Shown here piece after piece: positions 1 to 16,461 of a DNA stretch of 52,321 nucleotides. The first letter of the stretch is position 1. Every line of letters starts with the position of its first letter. The position numbers and the translations under genes are program-made. This DNA comes from a bacterium BMS3Abin11 (GTDB taxonomy: Bacteria; Pseudomonadota; Gammaproteobacteria; BMS3Bbin11), in the NCBI GenBank assembly GCA_002897635.1, contig BDTD01000020.1, positions 1 through 52,321 of the forward strand, written 5' to 3'. Below the pieces are notes generated by a model. The model made no database searches. It worked only from the letters and a program-made list of their open reading frames with translations, and was not told the origin of the DNA.

Positions 1-266
1 TTATAGCTTTTACCATCCTGAGCAGTTAGTTCCATTTTGGAACTAACTGAATCCTTCACCAGCTCACCAGATGCAAAAATATTATTCAAGTGTTTGGTGA
101 TTGCAGGCCGCTGCACCCCAAAAAGCTCGGCAATTTTATCCTGAGTCAGCCAAATATTCTCATCCTTTAGAAATATCTCAACCTTCACTTTATTATCTGG
201 CGTGGTATAGAGAAGGAACTCAGTAAAAGAATTTTCAAGGCTATTGTTAGTTTTTATTCTGCTCAT
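1..266 (-). CDS. RhuM-family protein, N-terminal part (runs off the window)
   Basis: The minus strand reads an open frame from an ATG at 266 to the window edge, about 88 residues. It begins MSRIKTNNSLENSFTEFLLY and contains a winged-helix-like stretch, NIWLTQDKIAELFGVQRPAI, followed by TKHLNNIFASGEL. This is the typical N-terminus of the virulence RhuM family (DNA-binding N-terminal domain, sometimes fused to Fic/Doc). RhuM genes are frequent in accessory and defence-rich regions, but their function is poorly known. The gene lies downstream of cas3 on the same strand with a gap of about 70 bp. The C-terminal part is outside the window, so completeness cannot be judged. Confidence 0.75.
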   Translation of the reverse strand, partial: MSRIKTNNSLENSFTEFLLYTTPDNKVKVEIFLKDENIWLTQDKIAELFGVQRPAITKHLNNIFASGELVKDSVSSKMELTAQDGKSY

Positions 267-336: not shown

Positions 337-2703
337 TTAAATAATACCAGATTTTGAATTAATCAAATCAGGCATAATGCCAAGAAAACTAGGGTCGTAT
401 TCATAAGCATCTGTCCATGAGAAAATATTATCTTGAGAGCAATTAACAATAGGCCGTAAGTTTAATTTCGCTATTTTCTGCATCCAAAGTTGTACGGAGT
501 TATTTTGCAAGTCTTGCCAATTCACAGGAAATCCATGTTCAAGTTTTTCTACTAATTTGGCGTCAATAATAACCGTAGCTGTATCGGAATCGATAACTCG
601 ATAAGTTGTTGATACCTCCTGGAACCCCTGTTTTTGTTCTTCAGACAACAGTAGTTCTGATTTATTTCTTTTCTCTGGAAACCGAGAAAGCTCTTTACGA
701 ATAGCTTTACTACAAAGCTCACTACTATCCACTTCGTCACTAACTATTTCTGACCACAGGTTATTCAAAATATCTGATGATTCAATAAAACCCGGATGAT
801 GATTGAGACCATCTTCAGAAAAAATAGAAAAATCAAATAACCGACCAAAAGATCGTATACCATGACGATTAATTCTCCCTGACACTTGCAAAAAACTGGT
901 TACTGAACAAGTTTCTCGAAAACCAATGGCGAAGTCCAAATCGACACCTGCTTCAACACAACTGGTGGCAATTAAATACCAGGGACGGTGATTCCAGTCG
1001 CTATCACCTTGTCTATGGATTATTTCCTCCAGCATTCTATCTCGATCCTTGGGTGCCAGAACAGTCGATAGATGCAATACGACTTTATTGGATAATTTAT
1101 TTTTCTTATCATCTAAGCTTTTTGCCAACGTATCTGCAATAACCGCTGCCGATTGCACTGTATTTAAAATCACCAAACACGATGGTTTGTCTTGATCGAT
1201 AAATTCACCCCAAGTTTCATCTGATTGTATACGTTCAACTAGATCATCGCGCTTCAAAGGATTTCTAATTCGGTCAAAAATAACGCGTTGCCTTTCAAAT
1301 TGTTGTGTTTTTATCCTCAATGATTCAGGCAGTAGGTCAGGCAAGGTACGCATACCTTCTTCACTAACTAAATAATCGTCTTTCCAAAATTTGACCATTG
1401 ATCCTGATGAAAAAACAATGTTGCATCGCCAAATATCGACTAACTGTCTCATCCAATACCAACTGACATTTAACAGTTCAGCAGGCAGACAAGCATGCGA
1501 TTCATCAATAAATATGGCAGAACCAACCACATTATGTAGCTTTCGAAGTTTTGAGGGGTTGGATGCAGCGAGTGTTTCAAAAAACTGTACAGCAGTGGTA
1601 ACTACAATGGGCGCTTGCCAACTAGCGGCATATTTGCGCATATCTTTATCGCTGAACTCTGCTTTATGATGATGCGCAACAACAACTGATGTAGCATCTT
1701 CATTATTTAGAACGATAGCTTTGCGTAAAACTTTGACGGTTTGATCTATAATGTTAGAAAATGGTGCAATGACGAAAATTCTGCTGGAATTATCTTTAAT
1801 TGCACAACGAAGCAAGTAAGCCATTACCGAGGTTGTTTTTCCTAAGCCTACCGGTGCTGAACAAGCAACTAGACGAGATTCAAATAAGTCTGTATCAAAA
1901 CAGTGTCGATAAAATTCTCCCCGCATCAGGTTACGATCGCTTTGAGGGTCACTGCTCGAATCAACTATGCTTAAAATATACCTATCCAAAGCCAATAAAC
2001 GTTGTGTCCAGCAAGTTTTAGCTGGCTTAAAACGTGTCATGAGAATATCTTGGCTATAGCAAGCAGCACTGCTGTGATCAGCATCGACTAAACAAGACAA
2101 CATCAAACGAGACGTTAAACTACTGGAGAGTAATTGCAAACTAAGCTGCGGCCATTGGCCACAAGATTCAATCTGTCTCTGTTTATAAACTTCAATCCTT
2201 TCATTCGTGGTGATTATAGCCTCTTTGTGCTTATCAAAATCAGCCGTGAGTTTGTCTCGGTGATGGCGCCGACCTCTTAGGCTGTAAGGCGACAAAGTTA
2301 GATGGGATTTTTTCCGTAGTTGTTTGATGAAATATTTTTCAGTTTTTTTACTCGGTAACCCTGGTGCATGATGACCGCGGATCAACCAGGCCAACAACTC
2401 ATTTTTCATTTCATCAGCAACTGCAACCCCTGCATCAATATGATCCACTGGCAAACGACCTGAATCCACGCCACGAAATATTCGTTGAATTGACTCATCC
2501 AGTTTACCCATGTCGTGCAACATCAGTGCTGCTTTGAATGTTATTCGTAGCTCAAGTTTTTCCGAATCAACCAACGTATAAAATGACAGCAGGTAGTCAA
2601 ATAAATCTAATCCATAACCCAACACCTCCTCAATATGATCAGTATATCGATGAGCTTCCAGCTCAGGTTTTGCCCTGGGAGGTGTATGAGCAAGGTAATA
2701 CAT
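337..2703 (-). CDS. cas3: Cas3: HD nuclease-helicase of a type I-C-like CRISPR system
   Basis: The 788-residue protein has an N-terminal HD nuclease domain (H18; HDMGK at 63-67; HH at 111-112; DAD at 207-209) and a superfamily 2 helicase domain: Walker A VGLGKT (about 285-290), DESH box at 400-403, SGS in place of the usual SAT/SGT motif III (about 433-435), motif V ATSCVEAGVD (about 579-588) and motif VI QVSGRINR (606-613). In type I systems Cas3 is recruited to the Cascade R-loop and degrades the non-target strand. All key residues appear present. Its ATG overlaps the cas7 stop codon (TAATG), so the two are translationally coupled. It is the last gene of the operon, whereas in canonical I-C loci cas3 comes first. 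Confidence 0.93.
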   Translation of the reverse strand: MYYLAHTPPRAKPELEAHRYTDHIEEVLGYGLDLFDYLLSFYTLVDSEKLELRITFKAALMLHDMGKLDESIQRIFRGVDSGRLPVDHIDAGVAVADEMKNELLAWLIRGHHAPGLPSKKTEKYFIKQLRKKSHLTLSPYSLRGRRHHRDKLTADFDKHKEAIITTNERIEVYKQRQIESCGQWPQLSLQLLSSSLTSRLMLSCLVDADHSSAACYSQDILMTRFKPAKTCWTQRLLALDRYILSIVDSSSDPQSDRNLMRGEFYRHCFDTDLFESRLVACSAPVGLGKTTSVMAYLLRCAIKDNSSRIFVIAPFSNIIDQTVKVLRKAIVLNNEDATSVVVAHHHKAEFSDKDMRKYAASWQAPIVVTTAVQFFETLAASNPSKLRKLHNVVGSAIFIDESHACLPAELLNVSWYWMRQLVDIWRCNIVFSSGSMVKFWKDDYLVSEEGMRTLPDLLPESLRIKTQQFERQRVIFDRIRNPLKRDDLVERIQSDETWGEFIDQDKPSCLVILNTVQSAAVIADTLAKSLDDKKNKLSNKVVLHLSTVLAPKDRDRMLEEIIHRQGDSDWNHRPWYLIATSCVEAGVDLDFAIGFRETCSVTSFLQVSGRINRHGIRSFGRLFDFSIFSEDGLNHHPGFIESSDILNNLWSEIVSDEVDSSELCSKAIRKELSRFPEKRNKSELLLSEEQKQGFQEVSTTYRVIDSDTATVIIDAKLVEKLEHGFPVNWQDLQNNSVQLWMQKIAKLNLRPIVNCSQDNIFSWTDAYEYDPSFLGIMPDLINSKSGII

Positions 2704-3605
2704 TATTCGTTCGCTAGATCAAGAACATCTTTAAACCGATCTAACAGATCACCCAAATCGTCTCGCTCAGGAATAGCGTAATCATTTGCTGATGTAGATT
2801 GTGTCAACCCTGATTTTAATTTAGGCGTTAAGGCATTAATAAACAGATGCTCAGGACAGGAACCCAAGGTATTTTTATGCTCAGCAAACCACGCATGTAA
2901 AACTGAGATTTGTGGACGAATTGCTGAAGCTGTATGCTGATAAACATACGGCAGCATGAATTTGAGTAGCTCTAAATCTTCGGCAGTTGCCCCCGTTTTT
3001 TTAGCAATACTTGGATTCACAAAAATAGGAATGCAATAGATGCCGTGCTGCACCACTCGAAAGGCCAAAGGTGCCATACCACGATCTTTACCAGCCTCTA
3101 CACCAGACTTGTTGGTATTGGTCATCCGAACAACCTCAATAGGTGCAATCGACATTCCCACGCCCATTTGGGTTGTTCCTGTATTAATTAAATGAGCATA
3201 ACCCCCTTCTTCTTTTTTCTTCTTTTGCTCTTTGCTTAGTTCAGAGTCTTTCAATGATTCCAAAAAGGTATTGCCAAACATGCGAGCATCCCAGTAGGTT
3301 TTCATAAACTCTTCTTTATCCATTGCTTTGATGGCATCTCGATCACGCCCCTGCTCTTCCAATATTTTGAATTGATTTTTCGTTTCTGCACCCAGATTTA
3401 GCTGCTTCTTGGCCACAGCAAAAACCTCAGAATCGTCACTAATTAAATCCCGTAACTTACGTTTCAGCGAAACAGGTGAGATCATTCCCAGGCCGTCTAG
3501 CTCACGAGTTCTTGGTTCTGATTCCATATCTGGATCACCATTCGGGTTCGACATAGTGACATCTAAAACCAATAAGCCAACATGGCGATTAAAAGGTGCA
3601 TTCAT
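2703..3605 (-). CDS. cas7: Cas7 (Csd2-like), Cascade backbone subunit
   Basis: A 300-residue protein with the Cas7/Csd2 hallmark near its N-terminus: LLVLDVTMSNPNGDPDMESE followed by PRTRELDGLG and VSLKRKLRDLI. Cas7 forms the helical backbone that coats the crRNA spacer in type I interference complexes. The NPNGDPD loop is shared by the I-B and I-C groups; with a Csd1-like Cas8 and a Cas5d-like Cas5 alongside, I-C is favoured. The start overlaps the cas8 stop by 4 bp (ATGA) and is preceded by AAGGAG. A lysine-rich insertion (KEQKKKKEEGG) lies near residue 130. The length is normal for the family. Confidence 0.93.
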   Translation of the reverse strand: MNAPFNRHVGLLVLDVTMSNPNGDPDMESEPRTRELDGLGMISPVSLKRKLRDLISDDSEVFAVAKKQLNLGAETKNQFKILEEQGRDRDAIKAMDKEEFMKTYWDARMFGNTFLESLKDSELSKEQKKKKEEGGYAHLINTGTTQMGVGMSIAPIEVVRMTNTNKSGVEAGKDRGMAPLAFRVVQHGIYCIPIFVNPSIAKKTGATAEDLELLKFMLPYVYQHTASAIRPQISVLHAWFAEHKNTLGSCPEHLFINALTPKLKSGLTQSTSANDYAIPERDDLGDLLDRFKDVLDLANE

Positions 3606-5725
3606 GAGTTTTCTCCTTGATTATTACTTGATTCGGTTGATGTTTTTTTCTGTTCAAAAGGGCGCCCCGCTAAATAGCCGAGCATTAGTTCGGCTTTGTA
3701 TGTGTCGGAGTTGGCTATAGGGCTTGACAGGAATTCGTTTAAAGACTTGGCCTGTTTACTCATCCAGATTTGAGCAAAAATAGCCGCAGTTATCGCCTTA
3801 TCTTCTGATCGAATATTTTTAGCCATTATTCGCTTAACCCATGAGTCATAGGGTTTTCGACGAGTTGCTAAAATAGCCATCGCTCTAATCGGGTTTTGTA
3901 AGGCCATGCCATAAATCTGATTCCCTAGCAAAGAACTTGGAATATCACCTTTGCGTTCACTTTTGCAATAACCGATATGCAGCTCATCCATCGCAGAACA
4001 TAACTGCCCTAGCTGAAAAGCAAAATCTTTCATATAGTTCTCCTTTCTTCGTCCAATTTTAAATAAAAGTACAGTCATCAAAGTGACCGCACTCAAAGCT
4101 TGTGTGTTATTTATAATGTTGGTTTTTACATGAGCCTTGGCTTGCAATACCCACTGCAACCTGCTCAAAGCACAATAGTTTAATAAGGGCTGATATTGCT
4201 CCGCGATACGTTGCAAACTACGTTTTGCCAAAGCTTGGTTATCTTGCCCAAGAAATAACTTCATCACATCAGCAAAGCTAATGCCGGGCAGATTTGTAGT
4301 GGCACTGCCATCACGAATATATTTTTGACGTGACAAATACATCACCTGCTGCGGGCTAATCGCCCAGGGTGAACACATCTGTTTTTCTTTTTTGTGTGTC
4401 AGAGCAAGTAGTTTGAAACTGGGCGAATTTTGACAAGCCTGTTTCCACTGTTCAGCCGCATGTTTCAATTTCCCAACTTTGGTCGTCGTACTGAAATTGA
4501 TTTTACGGTTAGCTTTATCTAAAACTATGATCTCGGCAAAATCGACCACCGCATCAAGACTCAAGTTCTTGCCCCTGAACGAGGCTAGCACCGACTCGGT
4601 TGCATCAAGGTAATCATCAAAATCATCGACTTCTGACTCACCTGTAATCAAGGGTGTAAGCGTCAGATCCCATTCCTCCTTGCAATAGGCCAGCAACAAA
4701 CTGGGTGATGCACCAAGGGTTGAGGGCAGCTTTGCCCAATTTTTATCTTTGAATTTTGCTGAATTAATAAAGGCGATACTGGCCGCCAGCTCCTGGCTAA
4801 GTTTGTCGGAAATAGGAAAAGCCGCCCCGCCCGAAACACCGTATCGTTTAACTGTAGGGCCGCTGGTTGTAGCATTTTTAGCAAATAGAGTAGTGCTTCC
4901 TACAATGTTTAATTTTTCTTTTGGAAATATATCATATACAACCTGCCCAATATTTCCTGTTAGGGCGCACTCGTCATTTCGAATCTTCTTATTGGTTTTC
5001 GATTCTGCTGCGAATAATGCCAAAGAAAGACCCGCGACCCTATCTCTGGATGATGCGTAGATATCGATGTCAACGTCCGGAAAATAATCGAGCATCAGTG
5101 TAACTCGCTTACCATCTTTAATTTTACCTTTTGACGTTACATCATCGCCAAATAACAGGGTGCAAATATCTTTTAAAGTGTATTTATCTGCCCCTTGTAG
5201 AGCTGATTCAATCAACAGGCTTGCAACTTGCTCAAGTATCTCTACGCCAGTTTCTGTTTGGCTGTATCGTTCAAATAACTGATAAACTTCTTTGCAATCA
5301 TCATTGCCAGCTAATTGATCTTTACGCGCCAACACTTGCTTGCGATAACTAGGCCAATTACCGATAAGGGATAAATCAACTAAATAATTTTGTGAGGCGC
5401 ATTTAATTAATTTTCGATAATCTTCTTCGTCAGGGTTGCTGATTTGTTTTTTCCAGGCAAGATATTCCACATGCCCCTCTGCCAAGAGCAAGGGATAAAC
5501 AACCTTAACCGCCGGAAACTGGTTTTTGTTACCATTCCCCAGTGACCAGCTATTCTGTATTTGCTCTTTGGTCATTAATTTAACCGAGGTCACTTGGCCT
5601 TGCTTATCCAGCATCACTCGAAATGTTGTACCCATCCCAGGCGATTGAATATCGTTATGTTTAATCGCTGGCGATTCTCCGATAGCTTTCAATCCCTGAT
5701 AGATTGAATAGAGTTCATTCAGCAT
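3602..5725 (-). CDS. cas8c: Cas8c/Csd1-like large Cascade subunit
   Basis: From the ATG at 5725 the protein has 707 residues. The frame stays open to a further ATG at 5791, but 5725 is preferred: AGGGGG lies just upstream and it gives an 11-bp overlap with cas5, whereas 5791 would overlap cas5 by 77 bp. Residues matching the conserved centre of Csd1/Cas8c are visible: a CALTGN segment, then IVGSTTLFAKNATTSGPTV and RYGVSGGAAFPIS, equivalent to the CAVTG / GxxSxGASLVSFN / YGxxQGxNAPVS region. Cas8c recognises the PAM and is the large subunit of I-C Cascade. Sequence conservation to typical Csd1 is low by eye and the protein is longer than usual (about 600), so this is a divergent member. Confidence 0.85.
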   Translation of the reverse strand: MLNELYSIYQGLKAIGESPAIKHNDIQSPGMGTTFRVMLDKQGQVTSVKLMTKEQIQNSWSLGNGNKNQFPAVKVVYPLLLAEGHVEYLAWKKQISNPDEEDYRKLIKCASQNYLVDLSLIGNWPSYRKQVLARKDQLAGNDDCKEVYQLFERYSQTETGVEILEQVASLLIESALQGADKYTLKDICTLLFGDDVTSKGKIKDGKRVTLMLDYFPDVDIDIYASSRDRVAGLSLALFAAESKTNKKIRNDECALTGNIGQVVYDIFPKEKLNIVGSTTLFAKNATTSGPTVKRYGVSGGAAFPISDKLSQELAASIAFINSAKFKDKNWAKLPSTLGASPSLLLAYCKEEWDLTLTPLITGESEVDDFDDYLDATESVLASFRGKNLSLDAVVDFAEIIVLDKANRKINFSTTTKVGKLKHAAEQWKQACQNSPSFKLLALTHKKEKQMCSPWAISPQQVMYLSRQKYIRDGSATTNLPGISFADVMKLFLGQDNQALAKRSLQRIAEQYQPLLNYCALSRLQWVLQAKAHVKTNIINNTQALSAVTLMTVLLFKIGRRKENYMKDFAFQLGQLCSAMDELHIGYCKSERKGDIPSSLLGNQIYGMALQNPIRAMAILATRRKPYDSWVKRIMAKNIRSEDKAITAAIFAQIWMSKQAKSLNEFLSSPIANSDTYKAELMLGYLAGRPFEQKKTSTESSNNQGENS

Positions 5726-6371
5726 AATTAAACGCCCCCTTTTTAATCCAGACTTCTTCACCTTGCTGGAATCGTGGTTTGTACCGTCCATTCACGGCTT
5801 TATCAAAAACCTGATTAAGCACTGATACTAAATCCAAATTAATTTCAGTATCAACCTCAGTTGCATCAGGAAGAGATTCATCATCACGAAGTGGCCCCCA
5901 ATAACTGGGTACAAACTCATTCCAGCCAAGCGCAGGTGTTTTGTGACATTGTCCTTTTTTTAATCGACGTTTAAAGATTGCTTCCAAAGCATGACAAGGG
6001 TTGTTGCCATTTTTTAGATGCTGACCACTGCCATTCTCGACAACACCATAAATCCGATAACAAACATCAGTCAAGATTAAACTCGAAAATTGAAAGTTAA
6101 CCTTTTTCTTATCCTTCAGTGGGCCACGATAATTATTGGTATAACATTGAAAATTCATCACGCCACCCGATGAGTCTTTCCTCTTGCATATCTCCACTTT
6201 CGTAGGTCGAATCCATGCCTTGCCATCATTAAAAAATGCCACCGATTCAAATATTCCCTTCACTGCAGACCATGTTGGTACTGGGTAGCTTGTCGGTGTT
6301 GCCCCAGTATCAGGTCGAGACCACATTGCAAAAGGGCCGGATATTTCCATTGCTATTTCGTATTTGCTCAT
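5715..6371 (-). CDS. cas5: Cas5 (Cas5c/Cas5d-like) subunit
   Basis: The 218-residue protein shows the Cas5d pattern: an N-terminal ferredoxin-like strand (EIAMEISGPFAMWSRPD), the segment YPVPTWSAVKGIFESVAF, the core strand SLILTDVCYRIYGVVEN, then FKRRLKKGQC and ALGWNEFVPSYWGPLRD. In I-C systems, which lack Cas6, Cas5 both caps the crRNA 5' handle and cleaves the precursor. By eye the residues described as catalytic in Bacillus halodurans Cas5d (Tyr, Lys-His) correspond to F46 and C126-H127 here, so processing activity is uncertain. It is the first gene of the operon; the start at 6371 has a good AAGGAG. No cas6, cas4, cas1 or cas2 follows. Confidence 0.88.
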   Translation of the reverse strand: MSKYEIAMEISGPFAMWSRPDTGATPTSYPVPTWSAVKGIFESVAFFNDGKAWIRPTKVEICKRKDSSGGVMNFQCYTNNYRGPLKDKKKVNFQFSSLILTDVCYRIYGVVENGSGQHLKNGNNPCHALEAIFKRRLKKGQCHKTPALGWNEFVPSYWGPLRDDESLPDATEVDTEINLDLVSVLNQVFDKAVNGRYKPRFQQGEEVWIKKGAFNYAE

Positions 6372-6427
6372 TTAGGCACTCCTTATGTTGAAATACTCAG
6401 TCAAACAATTCACGGTTCTTTAGCTTC

Positions 6428-6455
6428 ACTATAATAAACTTATTCATTCTACCAA
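6428..6455 (-). promoter_or_regulatory. Candidate promoter of the cas operon
   Basis: On the minus strand TTGGTA (6455-6450) and TATAGT (6433-6428) are separated by 16 bp, about 57 bp upstream of the cas5 start and just after the end of the neighbouring ATPase gene. This is a plausible sigma-70-type promoter read from sequence only. Confidence 0.4.
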
Positions 6456-6463
6456 CCCGGTAT

Positions 6464-7651
6464 TCATTCGCTTTCCGGTTTTGTTAACAACTGAACATCC
6501 CGCCAGGACAACAATCGCGCATCCGAACGCTGCTGGGTTGTTTCGCCGCCGTAAACCAATTGTTTTGTAATGCTGCGTTCACGGTTTTTATTTTGTTTCA
6601 GGTTGGCAAAGGTGTTCAGGTTTTTGAAGAAATAGGTGTTGACGGTGGCGGACGATTTTATTTCGATGGCGTTGAGTTGTTCGCCACAGTCTATGATCAA
6701 GTCTATTTCTAGTCCGCGTGTTTCTCTGTAGTGATACAGGTCGGGTTGTTCTCCATTGTGAACCAGTGCTTTGCAGGCTTCTGCTGCAACCCAGCTTTCA
6801 AAAATTGCACCTCTTTGTGGATGATGACGAAGTTGTTCTGGTTCTCGTATGCCGAGCAGATAGCAAACCAGGCCACTATCTAGAAAATGTAATTTGGGCG
6901 CCTTGATAACCTGTTTCCTTACGTTAGTGTGCCACGCGGGTAGTTGTTGAATGATGTAACTGGTTTCGAGGATGGATAACCATGCGCGGGCGGTGTTATG
7001 GCTTATACCAGCATCGTTACCGAGTGACGATAAATTTATTTCCTGTGCGGTGCGGCCTGCGCAGAGTTTCAGAAAGCCTGAAAAATGCTGCAAGTCACTA
7101 ACGTTAATGACTTGACGGACATCTCGCTGGATGTAGGTGGCCACATAATCGGCCAGCCATTGTTGTGGGGGGATTTTCTGGTCGTAAATTCTGGGGTAGG
7201 CACCTTGCCATAGTGTGGTGAAGAATTCATCGGGTGCATTCTTAAAGGCGAGCAATTCTTCCCGATTGGGTGGCAATAAAGTGAGTATGCCGCAGCGCCC
7301 TGCCAATGATTGTGCTATCGATTGTGATAAGCCGAAATGCTGTGAGCCGGTGAGTATGAACCTTCCGGGTTCTGGCCGGTCGTCCACATCGCTTTGCATA
7401 TAATTGAGTAGTTCAGGCGCATGCTGAACTTCGTCGATAATGGCACCTTCGGAATATTCGGCCAGAAATCCTCTGGGGTCATTATGTGCGTAGTCTCTAT
7501 TGTCTATGGCTTCCAGCGAGACATAGGCTTTGTCTGGAAAACTTGCCCGGCACAGGGTGGTTTTACCGGACTGGCGTGGACCGGTAACCACCACAACGGG
7601 GTAATAAGTCGCGAGTTCTGTTATTTTTGTTGCTAATTTACGCGGTATCAT
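6464..7651 (-). CDS. AAA-type ATPase with DUF4143-like C-terminus
   Basis: A 395-residue protein of the common AAA_14/DUF4143 family. Walker A GPRQSGKT is at residues 24-31, Walker B AIIDEVQ is at about 70-76, and a sensor-like FILTGSQHF follows. The C-terminal half has the DUF4143 pattern (HFLDSGLVCYLLGI, GAIFESWVAAEACK, then a nuclease-fold-like stretch with ETRGLEIDLIID and AIEIKSS). These proteins are widespread in accessory DNA; a role in defence or DNA metabolism has been suggested but no defined reaction is known. The gene ends 93 bp upstream of cas5 and shares its orientation, but a promoter candidate lies between, so it need not be part of the cas operon. Confidence 0.85.
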   Translation of the reverse strand: MIPRKLATKITELATYYPVVVVTGPRQSGKTTLCRASFPDKAYVSLEAIDNRDYAHNDPRGFLAEYSEGAIIDEVQHAPELLNYMQSDVDDRPEPGRFILTGSQHFGLSQSIAQSLAGRCGILTLLPPNREELLAFKNAPDEFFTTLWQGAYPRIYDQKIPPQQWLADYVATYIQRDVRQVINVSDLQHFSGFLKLCAGRTAQEINLSSLGNDAGISHNTARAWLSILETSYIIQQLPAWHTNVRKQVIKAPKLHFLDSGLVCYLLGIREPEQLRHHPQRGAIFESWVAAEACKALVHNGEQPDLYHYRETRGLEIDLIIDCGEQLNAIEIKSSATVNTYFFKNLNTFANLKQNKNRERSITKQLVYGGETTQQRSDARLLSWRDVQLLTKPESE

Positions 7652-7702
7652 GATTTGAGTCTGATCCGATGTGCATGGATTGTCAATCCTGCTTACAATT
7701 AA

Positions 7703-7915
7703 TGCATAAAACTTATATCCTCTTTAAATGTCGATTGCACTAAAAAACCAACTGTACGTATCGAAACTGACGAAAATATCAAGGCAGATATAAAAAACAC
7801 AGCTAAAAAGGATTTGTATTCCGAATTAAAAAAACTAAAGCAGTTAAAAGATGATGGTCTTATTACGCAGCAAGAATACGACAAAGAGAAGAAGGAACTT
7901 TTAGAGAAATATTAA
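7703..7915 (+). pseudogene. SHOCT-domain remnant in a probable integron cassette
   Basis: An open frame without a usual start codon ends at 7915 and encodes DLYSELKKLKQLKDDGLITQ followed by QEYDKEKKELLEKY, a clear SHOCT domain (short C-terminal domain found on many small membrane and lipoproteins). The frame upstream reads CTKKPTVRIETDENIKAD, possibly the part following a lipobox cysteine. An ATG at 7702-7704 opens a different frame (MHKTYILFK), so a frameshift may have separated a signal peptide from the domain. It ends 7 bp before an attC-like site, as cassette genes usually do. Whether it is expressed is unknown. Confidence 0.5.
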
Positions 7916-7921
7916 ATGGCA

Positions 7922-8021
7922 ATATAACAATCTCATCCAGTCGGACAGTCAAAAGGCTCACGATTTTTGCATCCGCAAAAAATCGCGCCCCTTTTGCCTG
8001 CCGCTGATGAGGGCGTTAGCC
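7922..8021 (+). other. attC-like recombination site (integron cassette)
   Basis: An imperfect inverted repeat of about 100 bp follows the SHOCT remnant. The left arm ATAACAATCTCATCCAGTCG then GACAGTCAAAAGG pairs with the right arm CCTTTTGCCTGCCGCTGATG then AGGGCGTTA; the apex is a second hairpin (CGATTTTTGC / GCAAAAAATCG). The right core GTTAGCC (8015-8021) matches GTTRRRY at 6 of 7 positions and the left core ATATAAC (7922-7928) matches RYYYAAC at 6 of 7. Recombination by an integron integrase would occur between G8015 and T8016. Size, core boxes and position after a stop codon fit an attC site; no integrase gene is in the window. Confidence 0.65.
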
Positions 8022-8057
8022 CTTGCAAAAAAAACAATAACTTGTACAATTGTCTGC

Positions 8058-8447
8058 ATGAAGATTATATCTGACACAAATATCCTATTGGCTGTAGTAT
8101 TTAATGAACCTGAAAAAGCAAATATTATCCAGCTTTCATCTGGAAACGAAGCAATAGGACCAGAAATACTTCCATATGAAGCTGGAAATGCTTTATCAGC
8201 AATGATTAAAAGAAGACAAGTAACACATAAAGAGGCGTTGGATGCGTATAAATTACTAAGCAATATCCCAGTGCGCTTACTTAGTGTAGATATTATTCAA
8301 GCATTAAAAATAGCAATGGACTTTAACATTTATGCATATGATGCTTACTTTCTACAGTGTGCTATAGAGCAAGCCAGCCCCTTACTTACGCTTGATAAAG
8401 GCATGAAAAAAGTAGCAAAAGCACTAAATATTGAAGTTATGGAGTAA
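8058..8447 (+). CDS. PIN-domain toxin (VapC-like ribonuclease)
   Basis: A 129-residue PIN-domain protein. Acidic residues expected at the metal centre are visible: D6 (ISDTNIL), E41 (PYEAGNAL), D95 (AYDAYFLQ) and D113 (LTLDKGM). VapC-type PIN toxins cleave RNA, usually tRNA or rRNA, when free of antitoxin. An upstream in-frame ATG at 8007 exists but would start inside the attC arm; 8058 matches the normal PIN start (MKIISDTNILLA). The gene precedes its partner by 4 bp, toxin first, which is the reverse of the usual order. It lies between two attC-like sites and is therefore probably cassette cargo. Confidence 0.85.
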   Translation: MKIISDTNILLAVVFNEPEKANIIQLSSGNEAIGPEILPYEAGNALSAMIKRRQVTHKEALDAYKLLSNIPVRLLSVDIIQALKIAMDFNIYAYDAYFLQCAIEQASPLLTLDKGMKKVAKALNIEVME

Positions 8448-8451
8448 TAAA

Positions 8452-8670
8452 ATGAAAGTATTCACATACTCAGAAGCACGTCAAAATCTGTCTAAACTCC
8501 TGATACTCGCACAAAAAGAGGAAGTAGAAATACGCAGAAGAGATGGGACAATATTTTCTTTAAAATCAAAAAAAAAGAAGAGACCATCTCCTTTTGATGT
8601 CCCAGGAATTCAGACAAAAGTAACCACAGAAGATATTCTTGACGCAGTTAAAGAATCAAGATTGGGCTAA
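8452..8670 (+). CDS. Phd/YefM-like antitoxin of the PIN toxin
   Basis: A 72-residue protein starting MKVFTYSEARQNLSKLLILA, the usual Phd/YefM N-terminal fold (F-T-x-S-E-A-R-xx-L). A basic patch, SKKKKRPSP, lies at about 39-47, and an amphipathic tail TTEDILDAVKESRLG probably masks the toxin. The ATG at 8452 has GGAG 7 bp upstream; an in-frame ATG at 8431 lies inside the toxin gene and is less likely. Such antitoxins bind their own promoter, but here no operator was identified upstream of the toxin gene. The stop codon lies inside the left core of the second attC-like site. Confidence 0.8.
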   Translation: MKVFTYSEARQNLSKLLILAQKEEVEIRRRDGTIFSLKSKKKKRPSPFDVPGIQTKVTTEDILDAVKESRLG

Positions 8671-8732
8671 CAACACGCTTAAATTCGTTCCAGCCTACGG
8701 CCTCCACCGGACGCGTGAACGCGCCGTTTAAG
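8665..8732 (+). other. Second attC-like site, degenerate
   Basis: Directly at the stop codon of the antitoxin lies GGCTAAC (8665-8671; RYYYAAC at 6 of 7), followed by AACACGCTTAAATTCGTTCC. This resembles the left arm of many environmental attC sites. The right side GGACGCGTGAACGCGCCGTT pairs partly with it (mismatches are normal in attC), but the right core reads GTTTAAG and departs from GTTRRRY, so recombination competence is doubtful. Together with the first site it delimits a cassette of about 710 bp carrying the toxin-antitoxin pair. Confidence 0.5.
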
Positions 8733-8734
8733 GA

Positions 8735-8843
8735 AAAGGGGGACGGAGTTAAAATAATAAAATAAGGACTTTCGTGCGGTGAATAACAATGAAAACGGAA
8801 AGAGAGGATATCTTATCTTATTATTTTAACTCCGTCCCCCTCT
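8735..8843. repeat. REP-like long inverted repeat
   Basis: Two nearly perfect inverted arms of about 30 bp, AGGGGGACGGAGTTAAAATA (about 8737-8756, continuing to 8766) and its complement (8812-8841), enclose a 45-bp loop. A further partial copy of the arm end (ACGTCCCCCTCTTTT) follows the right arm. The element sits about 170 bp upstream of a decayed REP-associated transposase, which fits a REP/REPIN-type element. Confidence 0.6.
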
Positions 8844-9015
8844 TTTACGTCCCCCTCTTTTCACTGGCGTTTTGTTAATGATGGTATCTTGTCTTGCATT
8901 GCTTTCTCCTGATTAAATAGTCAGAGAGAGCTTCGTGCAAGGTGAATCAGAATAATAGTGTGTGGTTTATTTTGCGCTTACTATAAAACAACTCAAATCC
9001 ACACGGAGGTGGACA

Positions 9016-9297
9016 ATGGCTCGACTACCAAGATTTACGATACCAGGTGTTCCGCAACACATCATACAACGTGGTAATAATCGCCAGCCCTGTTTCTACG
9101 CAAAGGAAGATTATAGGCGATATCATAACGATTTAACTGAGCCAATAAAAACCAGGCGATTGTTCATGCCTATGTGTTCATGAAGACATAAGCTAAATAC
9201 GCATAGAATAGAGGAAATGACAAATAGACAAACACGCCCACGGTCTTTAGGTCGTCCTAGGGTAGAAGAAGATGAAGCTGTATACTATTTTATTTAG
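9016..9297 (+). pseudogene. REP-associated tyrosine transposase (Y1/RAYT), decayed
   Basis: The start is typical of RAYT proteins: ATG at 9016 after GGAGGTGGAC, encoding MARLPRFTIPGVPQHIIQRG then NNRQPCFYAKEDYRRYHND. Frame +1 stops at 9183. A neighbouring frame continues AIVHAYVFMKT, which corresponds to the AIHAYVLMTNH segment of intact enzymes, so there is a frameshift followed by loss of the HUH motif and most of the body. A short frame at 9217-9297 (MTNRQTRPRSLGRPRVEED) looks like the C-terminal tail. Intact RAYTs mobilise REP palindromes; this copy cannot be active. Confidence 0.75.
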
Positions 9298-9430
9298 TAT
9301 ATTAGAGGAATCTGTGTTCTGACCCCGATTCTGCTGCCTGGGATTTGTCTTATAAAGACAGAGGCTTAAGTTGAGCTATTGGCATTTTTTAGTGTTATTC
9401 TTCATTTCATCTGAACAGTAGAAATAGTAT

Positions 9431-10339
9431 ATGACTGTTTTACTAACATATATGGTCTTGATTGAGCCTGATCTGCAGCAGCTCTCCAAATTTGTCCTGG
9501 AATCGGCAGAAAGGCTGGACGCCAATCAGTTTAAGGCATCAACGGCCTTGATTGGATTATTGGAAGAGTTGCGCAAGGCCAGCCGAGGAGGGGACTCTGC
9601 ATTAGAGACACAGCTTGTTATCAGGGACAAGCGACTGGAGTTGTCATGGAATGGGGAAAAACACCTCGTGGTGCAGTTGGAAAGTGATCCTGCCTCTGTT
9701 GTTATTGATGAGTTAGGCAGGCAATTAAAATATGAAAGTGAACTGGCCGACCCTGAACTGTTGCGAGTACGGAATGAAAAAATAAGCCTGAATCTGGAAA
9801 ATGCTAAAAAAAAGGCAGCAGAAGAAATGGCAGAGCTTGAGGCAGATCTTGCCAGTAAAAAGAGAAAGCTTTGGGTAGCCTCGCATCGGGCAGAAACCGA
9901 TAGTTTGACCGGATTACTTAATCGGGGTGCCTATGATGCACGACTCAAGGTAGCAATAAAATCCTGCCAGAAGGAAAAATCACCGCTTTGCCTGATATTG
10001 CTGGATCTTGATAACTTCAAGGAAATAAACGACTCTCAAGGTCATCAGTACGGCGATAAATATTTAAAAAACATCGCAACTATCATGCTTGGTTCATGTC
10101 GACATCAGATCGATTATGCCTACCGTATTGGTGGAGATGAATTCTCCATTATTATATTTGCAGAAATGAAGGCAGGATATCGTATTGCCGAAAAAATACT
10201 TGTCGAATTTAGTTACAAGGTCAGTATTGGTATCGTTGAAATGGGTGCGTCTGACGATGTTGAAAAGCTGGTATCACGTTGTGATAAAGCGCTTTATGAA
10301 GCAAAAGAAGAAGGTCGCGGTCAGGTTATCGCAGCCTGA
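9431..10339 (+). CDS. GGDEF-domain protein, probable diguanylate cyclase
   Basis: 302 residues. Residues 1-115 form a domain I do not recognise, 115-150 are a charged helical linker, and the GGDEF domain runs from about 155 to 300 (DSLTGLLNRGAYDA, LILLDLDNFKEINDSQGHQY, GGDEF at 234-238). An intact GGDEF motif predicts synthesis of c-di-GMP from two GTP. The inhibitory RxxD site is imperfect: the residues are R224-H-Q-I-D228, one position off. There is no membrane segment, so the protein is cytosolic. It is the first of four genes with RsbT/X, RsbR and RsbS-like products, which suggests the cyclase is the output of a stressosome-like switch. The ATG at 9452 is an alternative start. Confidence 0.85.
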   Translation: MTVLLTYMVLIEPDLQQLSKFVLESAERLDANQFKASTALIGLLEELRKASRGGDSALETQLVIRDKRLELSWNGEKHLVVQLESDPASVVIDELGRQLKYESELADPELLRVRNEKISLNLENAKKKAAEEMAELEADLASKKRKLWVASHRAETDSLTGLLNRGAYDARLKVAIKSCQKEKSPLCLILLDLDNFKEINDSQGHQYGDKYLKNIATIMLGSCRHQIDYAYRIGGDEFSIIIFAEMKAGYRIAEKILVEFSYKVSIGIVEMGASDDVEKLVSRCDKALYEAKEEGRGQVIAA

Positions 10340-10371
10340 GCTACTCATAACTTTATTTTTCCTGTCATTTT

Positions 10372-11397
10372 ATGAAATTGTTGTATGAACATACTATCCG
10401 TGATGAAGGCGGTCTGATTTTATTAAGATCTAAATTGCGAGCTGTTTCGAGAAGAATGGGCTACACAGACATTCAAAGAGAGCGCATGGAACTTGTTTAT
10501 AATGAGATGGTAAGCAATCAGCTGAAATTTGCCCAGGGCAGCGGCCTTGTTCAATTATGGGAAACTGATACAACAGGTCGTGCACTTGAGTTGTTTGCAC
10601 TTGATTTTGGGCCGGGCATTGCGGATATAGAAAACGCAGCCAATGATGGTTATACAACAGCCGGAACCATGGGAAAAGGCTTGGGTACGATAGGCCGCTT
10701 ATGTAATGAGAGTGTTGTTTATTCCATTCATGAGGATAAAACCGAAGAATCATCATGGCATGGTGTTTCTGTTTGGGCCAGATTTACGCTGGCAAAGAGC
10801 AAAAAACGTCAATTACTGGAATATGGTACCTATACAAGATCCTATCAGGACAGTATATTCAACGGTGATCATATATACGCTTGTACTATTGGCGATCAGA
10901 TACGTTGGTTACATCTCGATGGATTAGGGCATGGCAAAGAAGCGGCGGATGCAGTAGATGGGCTACAGGATATTATTCAACTCGATAAACCCATAATTGA
11001 GAGAATGGCTATATTGAATGCCCGAATGCAGGGAAGTCGTGGTGCGGTTGCAATCATGGTGGATGCGAATAAACTGGATAAAACGCTTGATATAAGTGGC
11101 ATTGGTGACATGATATGTTACCTGATTTGTGATGGTGTTCGCCAGAATGTCAGTTTCCCCCAAGGTGTATTGGGACATGCGCATAGATCGATTAATGTTG
11201 TTAATTTACCGTTTCCTCAACAGGCCATTCTTATGACGGCATCAGACGGGATTAGAAGAAGCTGGACATTGGAGATGTTCCCCAGATTATGGAGAATGCA
11301 TCCGCAGTTTATATCATTATTTCTTGGTTATATCCTTGGGCGCAATAATGATGATAAGTCTTTAATGGTGCTTCGTACGGCACCTCAAACTAAATAA
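10372..11397 (+). CDS. RsbT-like kinase fused to an RsbX/SpoIIE-like phosphatase
   Basis: The 341-residue protein combines two activities usually on separate proteins. Residues 1-140 are a GHKL/HATPase domain: N box YNEMVSNQLKFA (43-54), G1 LDFGPGI (77-83), G2 MGKGLGTIGR (100-109), as in RsbT. Residues 150-335 are a PP2C-like domain as in RsbX: LDGLGHGKEAADA (182-194), TASDGIRRSW (289-298) and DD at 327-328, all expected metal ligands. The predicted role is to phosphorylate the STAS proteins encoded next to it and to reverse that phosphorylation. It follows the GGDEF gene by about 30 bp and precedes the RsbR gene by 10 bp, so one operon is likely. Confidence 0.85.
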   Translation: MKLLYEHTIRDEGGLILLRSKLRAVSRRMGYTDIQRERMELVYNEMVSNQLKFAQGSGLVQLWETDTTGRALELFALDFGPGIADIENAANDGYTTAGTMGKGLGTIGRLCNESVVYSIHEDKTEESSWHGVSVWARFTLAKSKKRQLLEYGTYTRSYQDSIFNGDHIYACTIGDQIRWLHLDGLGHGKEAADAVDGLQDIIQLDKPIIERMAILNARMQGSRGAVAIMVDANKLDKTLDISGIGDMICYLICDGVRQNVSFPQGVLGHAHRSINVVNLPFPQQAILMTASDGIRRSWTLEMFPRLWRMHPQFISLFLGYILGRNNDDKSLMVLRTAPQTK

Positions 11398-11407
11398 GGG
11401 AATCACT

Positions 11408-12292
11408 ATGGTCAAAAAAGAAACCAAATCGACGAATCAGTTACTTGTTGAGTTGTTGATGACGCGAGTAGCGATAATATCCAATGTGATTGAGGAGCGC
11501 GGCAAAGATATCTTTGGAAAAGATAACCTGCTATCAACTGAAGAGATATCTGATTACAGCCTTGAATTTCTGGAGCTGTTTGTGACCTTGTTGCATGCAG
11601 GGAAGACAATTGACAGGCGCAGTTCCGAGTATAAGGCGTTGCGCCGATTTTTTGCTGAATTCTCGCATCAGATCCAGGTTAGAGGCAGTAATCTGGATGA
11701 ATTTGTACGCTATGTACAATTTCTTCAGCAAGTATTTATTGAGGGACTGGAAGAGACATCCAGCTTGAAATTCGAGGAGATCAGGTCAATTTTACTTTTG
11801 ATTGCATCTGTATTTAACGACATTCTGCTGGATGTATTCCATGTCTATCTGGATAAAAAAGAAAGTACAATACAGGCCCAACAGGATGAACTTAAAAAAA
11901 CTTCAACACCGATTACAGAAATCTGGGATGGTGTGCTGACATTACCCATTATTGGGACATTGGACTCTTCCAGGACACTGATGGTAATGGAGAAGCTTCT
12001 GTCCAGAATAGAAACCGAGAGAGCTCAGGTTGTTGTTATGGATGTGACCGGGGTGTTGGCTATTGACTCACAGGTTTCTCATCACCTTATCCAGATGATC
12101 AGGGCTATTGGATTAATGGGCGCCAAGGCGATCCTGACTGGTATTCGGCCTGAAATTGCACGTTCCTTAACCAGTCTGAACATTGATCTGGGTGATGTTA
12201 GTACACGTTCAACTTTATCAGAAGGACTGAAAGAAGCTTTCGTTCATCTTGGTATACATGTCGATTCCACGGATAGAAGAGAGATCGTTTAA
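11408..12292 (+). CDS. RsbR-type stressosome protein (RsbRD_N + STAS)
   Basis: 294 residues. The N-terminal ~150 are helical and match the RsbRD_N domain; a short coiled linker (about 150-165) leads to a STAS domain (168-285) with the RsbR pattern: ITEIWDGVLTLPIIGTLDSS, VVVMDVTGVLAIDSQVSHHL and AKAILTGIRPEIARSL. The two phosphorylation positions of Bacillus RsbRA (T171, T205) appear to correspond to S221 (IDSQ) and T244 (ILTGI) or nearby residues. RsbR paralogues form the stressosome core with RsbS and hold the RsbT kinase until a signal arrives. There is no haem or PAS motif in the N-terminus, so the signal is unknown. Confidence 0.85.
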   Translation: MVKKETKSTNQLLVELLMTRVAIISNVIEERGKDIFGKDNLLSTEEISDYSLEFLELFVTLLHAGKTIDRRSSEYKALRRFFAEFSHQIQVRGSNLDEFVRYVQFLQQVFIEGLEETSSLKFEEIRSILLLIASVFNDILLDVFHVYLDKKESTIQAQQDELKKTSTPITEIWDGVLTLPIIGTLDSSRTLMVMEKLLSRIETERAQVVVMDVTGVLAIDSQVSHHLIQMIRAIGLMGAKAILTGIRPEIARSLTSLNIDLGDVSTRSTLSEGLKEAFVHLGIHVDSTDRREIV

Positions 12293-12338
12293 TCTGTTTA
12301 TATAAAATTAACCAGAAAATATCAGTGGATTATTCCGT

Positions 12339-12689
12339 ATGAGAGGAATGCACTTAACCGCAATAGGAGAGGGCAGTATATTGCTCGAGCCCGGGGCGGG
12401 TCTTGACCCCCATAATACGGATTTATATCTTGAACCTTTGATGTCTTTTTTGCAGCAGAAAAAAGCCAGGAAATTAATTTACGATCTGAAAAATGTGCCA
12501 TTGATTGACACTATTTATTATAACTGGCTGGTTCATATTCACCGTTTATGCAGTATATCTGGAATGGTATTTATTGTTGCCAATATGCAACCTACCGCCG
12601 CTTTTGCCTTATCTACCACGATCAAGGAAACACCACCCTTTATATGTGCATTAGATGTTGAGAGTGCCCGGTTAAGCGGGCCGACCTGA
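12339..12689 (+). CDS. RsbS-like single STAS-domain protein
   Basis: A 116-residue STAS protein with KLIYDLKNVPLIDTIYYNWL around residues 45-63. The D57-T58 pair sits where RsbS carries its phosphorylated serine (IDS), so T58 is the likely target of the upstream kinase. The protein probably completes an RsbR-RsbS stressosome scaffold. It starts 46 bp after the RsbR gene; M4 is an alternative start. It is the last gene of the module; what follows is a transposase remnant. Confidence 0.7.
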   Translation: MRGMHLTAIGEGSILLEPGAGLDPHNTDLYLEPLMSFLQQKKARKLIYDLKNVPLIDTIYYNWLVHIHRLCSISGMVFIVANMQPTAAFALSTTIKETPPFICALDVESARLSGPT

Positions 12690-14421: not shown

Positions 14422-15840
14422 ATGAAACCGACAATAATGAAAGTCTTTATTTATACACTGACACTTATTGCATGGCTACCGCTGGCAACAGCCAGTGCAA
14501 AGACGGACAATGAAGTTTCCGAGCAGGAAGCCTACGAAATCGCCGTCGAAGCTTACCTCTACCTTTACCCGATAATCTCCATGGATGTGACGCGGCGCGT
14601 GATAACCAATCTGCCCGCAGGAAAAAAGAGCGGCTTTGGGCCGGAAAATGCTTTCCATCACAAGAGAACCTTCCCGTCGGCCGATTCTCGTGAAGTCGTA
14701 CGACCGAACTTTGATACGCTTTATTCATTCGCCTGGCTCAACCTGACGAAGGAACCGATGGTGGTTTCCACGCAGGATACGCACGGCCGGTACTTCATGC
14801 TGGAGATGTTGGGCATGTGGACTGATGCCTTTGCCGTGCCGGGTTCGCGCACCAGTGGTAATAAAGCTCAGCATTATGCCGTCGTCCCACAAGGATGGAA
14901 CGGCGATTTACCAAAAGGTATGGAATCTATCGTTGCACCCACACCTTACGTATGGATCGTTGGTCGGACCCAAACCAACGGAGTAAAAGATTATGAAGCT
15001 GTTCATAAGGTACAGGATGGCTTCAAGATTACACCACTTTCCCAGTGGGGCGGGAAGAATTTTGCCGTAGACACATTCAAGAATGATCCCGGTGTAGATA
15101 TGAAAACACCGCCGGCAAAACAGGTAGAGGCAATGGTTGCGAGTAAATACTTCAGTTATGGCGCGGAGCTGATGAAGGTCAATAAGCCACACGTAACGGA
15201 CTGGTCTATCCTGGCTCGCCTGGAACGCATTGGTATCGTAGCCGGCGAAAGCTTTGACTTTGCCAAGGCTTCGCCTGTGGTAAAAAAGGCGCTTGAACGC
15301 GCCATTGTAGATACACCCAGGTTGATGCAGAAAATATTTCCCACTGTGGCACCCGTCATTAACGGCTGGCAGATGAATACCTCAACAATGGGCGTCTATG
15401 GTAACTCTTACATGAAGCGCGCCATTGTCGCCCTGATTGGTCTGGGTGCAAATCAGCCTGAAGATGCAATCTACCCGATAAATATTAGCGATGCCGATGG
15501 CAATCCCGTAGAAGGAAACAATCAGTATGTCATGCATTTCACCAAGGCCAAGTTGCCGCCCGTAGAAGCATTCTGGTCCCTCACCATGTATGACGCCGCT
15601 GGCTTTCAGGTTGCCAACAAACTCAACCGGTTTGCCTTAGGTGATCGTGACAAATTGAAGTACAACGCCGATGGCTCGCTCGATATCTATATTCAACACA
15701 AGTCACCAGGTAAGGACAGAGAGTCTAACTGGCTACCATCACCGGACAAAGGCACCCTTGGTTTAACCATGCGTCTGTATGCACCAAAATCTCAGGTGCT
15801 GGATGGCCGCTGGGTACCACCAGTGGTTAAAAAAATGTAA
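14422..15840 (+). CDS. DUF1254/DUF1214 periplasmic protein
   Basis: 472 residues with an N-terminal signal peptide (MKVFIYTLTLIAWLPLATAS from residue 6). The DUF1254 domain covers about 35-180 (AVEAYLYLYPIISMDVTRR, VVRPNFDTLYSFAWLNL, RYFMLEMLGMWTDAFAVPGS) and the DUF1214 domain occupies the C-terminal third (AFWSLTMYDAAGFQVANKLN, LPSPDKGTLGLTMRLYAP). Length and domain order are normal. The family is widespread in Proteobacteria but no reaction is established. It follows the beta-barrel gene on the same strand with a 314-bp gap, so co-transcription is possible but not shown. Confidence 0.85.
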   Translation: MKPTIMKVFIYTLTLIAWLPLATASAKTDNEVSEQEAYEIAVEAYLYLYPIISMDVTRRVITNLPAGKKSGFGPENAFHHKRTFPSADSREVVRPNFDTLYSFAWLNLTKEPMVVSTQDTHGRYFMLEMLGMWTDAFAVPGSRTSGNKAQHYAVVPQGWNGDLPKGMESIVAPTPYVWIVGRTQTNGVKDYEAVHKVQDGFKITPLSQWGGKNFAVDTFKNDPGVDMKTPPAKQVEAMVASKYFSYGAELMKVNKPHVTDWSILARLERIGIVAGESFDFAKASPVVKKALERAIVDTPRLMQKIFPTVAPVINGWQMNTSTMGVYGNSYMKRAIVALIGLGANQPEDAIYPINISDADGNPVEGNNQYVMHFTKAKLPPVEAFWSLTMYDAAGFQVANKLNRFALGDRDKLKYNADGSLDIYIQHKSPGKDRESNWLPSPDKGTLGLTMRLYAPKSQVLDGRWVPPVVKKM

Positions 15841-15942
15841 TAGATTTATTGGGGGCTTGATGCTGAAAACAGGGATCAGGTATTGAGTTATCTTATCTAA
15901 CAATCCTCAAGTGATAAGCCAACACCTGCCCCTGAGCGCATA

Positions 15943-16461
15943 TCAGAATACGGGGACGAGTGAGTACCCCTGTGCCTGGTAGCCGATGGCGGAGATGAAC
16001 CCATTGCCGACGGGTGTGACGTCCGGGATCACATCAGCTGGTGCGATGTCCATGCCCTTGAGTGCCACACTACAGACTTCGCTGCGGATGCCAAGGGTCT
16101 TGAGTTTGTGTATGCCTTTCTGTATGGCGGCCACGTTCCGTTGGTCCATGTAGGAAATGCCGCGCCGATCCTTGGTGAGAAAGGCAGCGGAGGGACCGAT
16201 GAAGACAACAACGATCTGGGGTTCTACCCCTTGCGCACGCATCCCCTTTTCGGTTTTTTCTATAACACGGAGTACATGAGACAGGCGACGAGCATCCTTG
16301 ACGTTGAGCATGAATACCGCTTTTGCACTAGTCAATCCCTGTAGTGCCTGAGTGTCCCTGGGTTGAGTAGCCGGTGGGGCGGCCGAGACAGCCGTCATCG
16401 TCAGCAGTAAAGCCAACAGGGTGAGTGTCGGGAACAGAACATATCTTCTAGCAAGGTGCAT
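15943..16461 (-). CDS. Periplasmic DsrE-like protein
   Basis: 172 residues from the ATG at 16461, which is preceded by a strong TAAGGAGG. The frame extends upstream to 16539, but the signal peptide (MHLARRYVLFPTLTLLALLL, cleavage after AVSAA) begins at 16461. The mature domain has a DsrE/DsrF-like alternation: AVFMLNVKDARRLSHVLRVI, VVVFIGPSAAFL and a single cysteine in SEVCSVALKGM. DsrE-like proteins are small sulfur-carrier or structural folds; exported members are common in sulfur-metabolising bacteria, but the function of this one cannot be read from sequence. Confidence 0.7.
   Translation of the reverse strand: MHLARRYVLFPTLTLLALLLTMTAVSAAPPATQPRDTQALQGLTSAKAVFMLNVKDARRLSHVLRVIEKTEKGMRAQGVEPQIVVVFIGPSAAFLTKDRRGISYMDQRNVAAIQKGIHKLKTLGIRSEVCSVALKGMDIAPADVIPDVTPVGNGFISAIGYQAQGYSLVPVF

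Follow-up and report, generated by a model that had tools for sequence, protein, structure and literature searches.

A cas5-cas8-cas7-cas3 operon from a gammaproteobacterial contig as a probable member of a divergent branch of type I-C CRISPR-Cas systems

The operon and its proteins

Type I-C CRISPR (clustered regularly interspaced short palindromic repeats)-Cas systems, such as those of Desulfovibrio vulgaris and Neisseria lactamica, usually have the gene order cas3-cas5-cas8c-cas7-cas4-cas1-cas2. In the contig of bacterium BMS3Abin11 analyzed here (BDTD01000020.1; the whole contig of 52,321 bp is referred to as the window), a minus-strand operon comprises cas5 (6371-5715), cas8 (5725-3602), cas7 (3605-2703) and cas3 (2703-337), in this order, so that cas3 is last rather than first. 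Neighboring genes overlap by 11 nt (cas5/cas8), 4 nt (cas8/cas7) and 1 nt (cas7/cas3); the start of cas8 was set at 5725 by alignment to relatives, the listed open reading frame (ORF) beginning further out, at 5791. None of the four genes contains an internal stop, and ratios of nonsynonymous to synonymous substitution rates (dN/dS) of 0.03-0.11 across four close relatives indicate strong purifying selection on all of them. Cas3 (788 aa, a nuclease-helicase matching PADLOC Cas3c at 4e-98) retains the HD motifs, Walker A (GLGKT), DExH (DESH) and QxxGRxxR (motif VI). A first-pass annotation of this DNA had described an overlapping operon in this order, encoding proteins with largely intact motifs, and the coordinates, overlaps, profile matches, Cas3 motifs and dN/dS values agree with that description.

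The remaining subunits resemble those of type I-C to different degrees. Cas5 (218 aa, Cas5c/Cas5d-like; dN/dS 0.04-0.09) matches PF09704 (1e-10) and PADLOC Cas5c (5e-18), and phmmer pairs it with solved I-C Cas5 proteins (3kg4, 8g9t, 3vzi, 8dex, 7kha). Because no cas6-like gene is present among the ORFs of this operon or of two more complete relatives described below (L009 and L011), Cas5 is presumed to be the nuclease for precursor CRISPR RNA (pre-crRNA), and this predicted activity would let Cas5c stand in for Cas6 in crRNA processing. The backbone subunit Cas7 (300 aa) matches PF05107 (1e-50) and the Cas7b/c profiles; its closest solved counterparts are I-C Cas7 proteins (8g9s, 7kha, 9jhb), and it scores 110 bits against TIGR02589 Csd2, for which the cut-off is 182 bits, and 60 bits against I-B Csh2. 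The large subunit, a divergent Cas8c of 707 aa, matches the PADLOC profile PDLC01562 (1e-180).

An internal start in cas8 that yields the small subunit Cas11 is shared by types I-C, I-B and I-D. In type I-C, Cas11c is made from such a start (PMC7684278). In the window, an in-frame internal ORF of cas8 (3602-4033, minus strand) is predicted to encode a Cas11 of 143 aa, starting with an ATG at codon 565 behind a conserved Shine-Dalgarno sequence, AAGGAG (4040-4045). The AAGGAG-ATG combination is shared by the window and the relatives L008, L009 and L010; L011 (GAGG) and L004 (AGGA) have weaker forms. Among four close genes, the site is the only run of seven identical codons out of seven in cas8 (background 32%), and the permutation P for such a run is 0.001 at this site and 0.08 anywhere in the gene. 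The AlphaFold2 model of the 143-aa region is all-helical, with a predicted local distance difference test score (pLDDT) of 78, and its top match in the PDB is the I-C Cas11 chain 8g9s_L, at a non-significant E of 0.78. The cas8 gene thus appears to carry the internal Cas11 start characteristic of type I-C, with a predicted product.

Relatives with the same gene order and the I-C affiliation

When 84,980 species genomes were scanned with an alignment of three Cas8 sequences, four loci (L008-L011) emerged, and a search of phage sequences with Cas8 gave only one more, L004, while the corresponding plasmid search gave nothing. The order cas5-cas8-cas7-cas3, the conservation of which in related genomes the first-pass annotation had proposed to check, is common to the window and to all five loci. 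Two of these are complete: L009, in a metagenome-assembled genome (MAG) of Gammaproteobacteria (G081), reads cas5-cas8-cas7-cas3-RhuM-cas4-cas1-cas2-array with at least 9 repeats, and L011, in a groundwater MAG, reads cas5-cas8-cas7-cas3-KilA-N-cas4-Bro-N-cas1-cas2-array with at least 6 repeats. In L008 the four genes are followed by a degraded RhuM-like start, the contig ending 128 bp on; in L010 a 181-aa stub of the cas3 HD domain precedes cas5-cas8-cas7-cas3, the last gene being cut. The identity of the L008 contig (52,421 bp) with that of the window (52,321 bp) was considered and rejected, the operons being 80% identical at the nucleotide level and the flanks different. L004, a human gut scaffold (MT837094.1) filed as 'Bacteriophage sp.', has the four genes at 1231-8388, and its 9.8 kb include no adaptation genes; its Cas8 is only 24% identical, and the gene order is still the same. 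The operon of L004 adjoins a fragment of an integrase gene and an ORF similar to the terminal part of GMP synthase, so that this scaffold may represent an integrative element instead of a phage.

The variant is rare: within the class, 3 of 369 genomes have a PDLC01562 match, and within the phylum 1 of 398 does, whereas ordinary Csd1 is far more common (23 of 229 genomes of the class). The arrays of L009 and L011 consist of 32-nt I-C repeats of the form GTCGC-N13-GCGTGGATTGAAAC, with the I-C repeat ending GTGGATTGAAAC. In a comparison of L009 spacers with phages, the only hits were to other arrays, by way of the repeats.

Phylogenies that included ordinary I-C and I-B proteins placed the Cas7 sequences of the variant in a single clade outside ordinary I-C, and likewise its Cas3 sequences (100/100 in both cases). 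The variant clade persists when phage sequences are added, the placement of the Cas7 clade relative to ordinary I-C then becoming ambiguous. The window Cas8 has no match to Pfam Csd1 (PF09709), and PDLC01562 is the only profile that it matches, none of the four Cas8c models matched by D. vulgaris Cas8c being among its hits. Profile-profile comparison with hhalign nevertheless relates the window-type Cas8 to ordinary Cas8c (probability 96.7%, E 4e-10, 361 columns), compared with probabilities of 0.1-0.2% for I-B controls; an AlphaFold2 model of the full-length Cas8 with five relatives was too uncertain for use (pLDDT 39).

Collectively, these comparisons support the prediction from sequence that the operon is an effector module belonging to a rare branch of type I-C that has diverged deeply. 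The variant shares with type I-C the gene set, the lack of cas6, the Cas5c-type Cas5, the affinity of Cas7 to solved I-C Cas7 and the internal Cas11 start, along with, in the complete relatives, the 32-nt repeat and cas4-cas1-cas2 genes nested within I-C. It differs in the terminal position of cas3, in the failure of Cas8 to match Csd1 or the models of D. vulgaris Cas8c, and in the separate clades of Cas7 and Cas3. A distinct I-C branch had been suggested in the first-pass annotation; the separate clades, the Cas8c profile and the order kept in relatives all favor it, and the Cas7 and Cas3 trees, with the variant outside ordinary I-C, disfavor a recent rearrangement. Gene order alone does not exclude I-C because order varies in other I-C loci: cas3 is divergently oriented in L045, L085 and L090 and is last in the phage locus L083. 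The latter (IMGVR_UViG_3300042471_001765, 5861-10805) encodes an ordinary-type Cas8c in a cas5-cas8-cas7-cas3 arrangement, so the terminal cas3 arose, or was kept, outside the variant clade as well.

The Cas8 family itself has already been collected and labeled I-C, given that PDLC01562 ('Cas8c; CAS-I-C effector_LS') is the sole Cas8 profile matched by the window, L011, L004 and the phage locus L074 discussed below; this profile is silent on gene order, effector exchange, phage association and the Cas11 start. In I-C CRISPR-associated transposons, the effector lacks the Cas3 nuclease and is tied to Tn7-type genes; the window does not show this pattern, since its Cas3 is intact, although no search aimed at Tn7 genes was made.

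The contig edge and the exchange of effector genes

The first base of the window is a contig end that falls inside a RhuM-family gene, of which the N-terminal 88 codons remain (1-266, minus strand; PADLOC PDC-S05, 2e-29; similar to RhuM of the cas loci L009, L042, L050 and L051) and which starts 70 bp behind cas3. A RhuM protein search of the entire assembly (2.67 Mb, 38 contigs, 99.9% complete) found this N-terminal piece and no remainder; therefore, sequence is certainly missing at the left edge. Within the window there is no array, in line with the first-pass annotation, nor any array-like tandem repeat, cas4, cas1 or cas2. That annotation had taken cas4, cas1 and cas2 to be absent on both sides and the operon to be stand-alone. 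The first statement holds for the window, but on the left it reflects the contig end and not the genome, because base 1 lies inside RhuM; the second is not supported, because the operon is clipped at the very gene that separates the effector genes from cas4-cas1-cas2-array in L009 and in ordinary I-C loci. At the homologous loci, cas4-cas1-cas2 and an array are indeed found where the window ends, the window's own sequence stopping at that point. The suggestion that crRNAs come from another array in the genome likewise found no support: the assembly contains no cas1 (PF01867), no cas4 (with the cas4 of a relative as the query) and no I-C repeat at up to 3 mismatches, the latter in a pattern search rather than a full array scan.

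In L009 and the ordinary I-C loci L042, L050 and L051, RhuM separates the effector genes from cas4; in the ordinary locus L054 it stands behind cas7, at the contig end. Recurring at this junction, it may be an accessory gene with a role of its own or a junction marker that shows only where insertion or recombination is favored. In L011, a KilA-N gene (15642-16397) lies between cas3 and cas4 and a Bro-N gene (17133-18002) between cas4 and cas1, the Bro-N DNA being 78% identical to that of the ordinary I-C locus L050 (5352-5934). RhuM-domain genes have also been described between cas9 and cas1 in type II-C loci of Bacteroides fragilis (PMC5704556); the RhuM gene thus sits at the effector/cas1 junction there, as it does at window-type and I-C loci, although the CRISPR type and the bacterial phylum are different.

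The clearest new point is an apparent in-situ swap of the effector genes. L009 can be compared with L051, an ordinary I-C locus (cas3-cas5-cas8c-cas7-RhuM-cas4-cas1-cas2-array) in another genome of its genus (G208). Beginning at RhuM and continuing past cas2 into the array, the two are 80% identical at the DNA level and their 32-nt repeats are identical, whereas no DNA similarity is detectable left of RhuM. At the other edge, positions 660-1204 of L010 align at 75-78% identity with the beginning of ordinary cas3 genes (L054, L055), the similarity ending about 20 bp before the start of the variant cas5, and L009 has a shorter, eroded cas3 remnant of 61 aa at the matching position. In the Cas1 tree, L009 and L011 nest at two separate points inside ordinary I-C (99/96, 98/95, 100/99). 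The simplest reading of these alignments and trees is that the variant cassette replaced resident I-C effector genes at least twice, or once with a subsequent reversal. An empty-site comparison within the genus was uninformative, the neighboring gene not being shared.

Two truncated genes at these loci deserve mention in their own right. The 181-aa HD stub of L010 (684-1229) overlaps the start of cas5 by ATGA and has intact HD motifs; it could be a separate Cas3'' nuclease instead of debris. The ordinary cas3 of G208 (L051, 6700-8410) encodes only 512 aa, with no HD domain detected, and is apparently truncated at its start.

Effector exchange is already known as a process, having been described in general terms as in-situ replacement of effector genes with the adaptation genes and array retained (PMC6452270). 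The case at hand follows this scheme and differs from it in that the two effectors are very distant I-C-type modules and that both edges are readable (the left one from the cas3 HD stub, the right one from RhuM). A literature search, in which most subscription journals were out of reach, found no report of this swap, gene order or phage link, so that this instance, with distant I-C-type effectors swapped, readable splice edges and a fixed cas5-cas8-cas7-cas3 order, looks new.

A phage-borne sister locus came to light in IMG/VR only with a Cas7 profile, Cas8 queries having detected nothing there. This locus, L074 (IMGVR_UViG_3300005613_000001), lies on a 527-kb phage contig and reads cas5-cas8-cas7-array-cas3 (coordinates 5481-12454 and 9048-9920), the array being its own; its repeats end in GCGTGGGTTGAAAC, and no cas1, cas2 or cas4 was found within the stretch examined. 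Its Cas7 and Cas3 fall in the variant clade (100/99 and 100/100), and its Cas8 matches PDLC01562 alone. The contig also carries HNH-endonuclease and sigma70-decoy-like genes. An I-C variant known from huge phages, in which another helicase takes the place of Cas3 (PMC7162821), resembles L074 in its I-C-like Cas5, lack of cas6 and adaptation genes, and phage location; both the window and L074, in contrast, have a true Cas3 (in the window, with HD and helicase motifs). L074 makes the origin of the variant as a mobile cassette plausible, the direction of transfer not being proved.

Competing readings and the neighborhood of the operon

The explanation that we consider likely is that the operon is a divergent I-C effector module, that its adaptation genes and array lie beyond RhuM, and that the cassette replaced resident I-C effector genes. 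Several observations weigh against it: cas1, cas4 and the I-C repeat are all missing from a bin scored as nearly complete; L008, the contig of which stops at the same place, also lacks cas1; the window RhuM is only a distant relative of that of L009; and some tree placements involve long branches. The same absences from the assembly would be expected of a true stand-alone module that draws crRNAs from an array belonging to some other system or element present in the cell, and the four-gene scaffold L004, with its adjoining integrase fragment, and the phage locus L074 point the same way. We nevertheless regard this as unlikely, because the contig ends within the gene that separates effector from cas4 in L009 and four ordinary I-C loci, the rest of that gene is missing as well, hence sequence certainly is lacking there, and the search for the I-C repeat pattern turned up no array in the assembly from which crRNAs could come.

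That cas3 was recently moved behind cas7 in an otherwise ordinary I-C locus would fit the I-C-like character of all the genes and the variable position of cas3 in I-C, including the terminal one in L083. A plain rearrangement was rejected on the Cas7 and Cas3 trees, in which all variant-type relatives form one deep clade; this clade, the lack of a Csd1 match in Cas8 and the order unchanged in the distant L004 indicate that the arrangement is old rather than recent, and make such an origin highly improbable. Harder still to credit is a decaying, functionless remnant: although the assembly shows neither an array nor adaptation genes, the four ORFs are intact, the Cas3 motifs are kept, dN/dS is low and conservation extends even to the ribosome-binding site inside cas8.

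An extension of the preferred explanation, which is put forward only tentatively, is that the variant is a separate mobile I-C-like cassette that travels on phages and integrating elements, sometimes together with an array of its own and sometimes not, and that more than once displaced resident I-C effectors, reusing their adaptation genes and array and possibly escaping anti-CRISPRs directed at ordinary I-C; RhuM, KilA-N and Bro genes would then mark the splice site.

In the preferred explanation, the operon would function in the usual RNA-guided manner of type I systems. The pre-crRNA would be cut by Cas5, Cas7 would coat the spacer, and Cas7, Cas8 and Cas11 would assemble into Cascade, which would find targets flanked by a protospacer adjacent motif (PAM) recognized by Cas8. 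Cas11 from the internal start would hold the non-target strand, and recruited Cas3 would unwind and degrade the target DNA, as in known I-C systems. Its adaptation genes and array would probably follow RhuM, immediately past the left end of the contig, the cassette having presumably replaced cas3-cas5-cas8c-cas7 of resident I-C loci while the RhuM/KilA-N-cas4-cas1-cas2-array half was kept. If this is right, one kind of I-C adaptation module, with repeats that do not differ, would serve two effectors so unlike that their Cas8 proteins share no profile match, providing a natural experiment on the compatibility of adaptation (PAM choice, Cas4, repeat) with interference, and another on anti-CRISPR evasion through effector exchange. 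The picture of a fixed I-C gene order would be corrected, and a second, distant I-C Cascade would become available for biochemistry and genome engineering.

Upstream of cas5, a DUF4143/AAA_14 ATPase identified by profile matches (6464-7651, minus strand) is not counted as a member of the system. It is followed by a PIN-domain toxin gene and a small antitoxin-like ORF (8007-8670) and, beyond this pair, by a truncated transposase-like fragment (approximately 9020-9190). The G+C content of the first 12 kb of the window is 0.40-0.42, compared with 0.46-0.52 in the remainder, resembling an acquired island.

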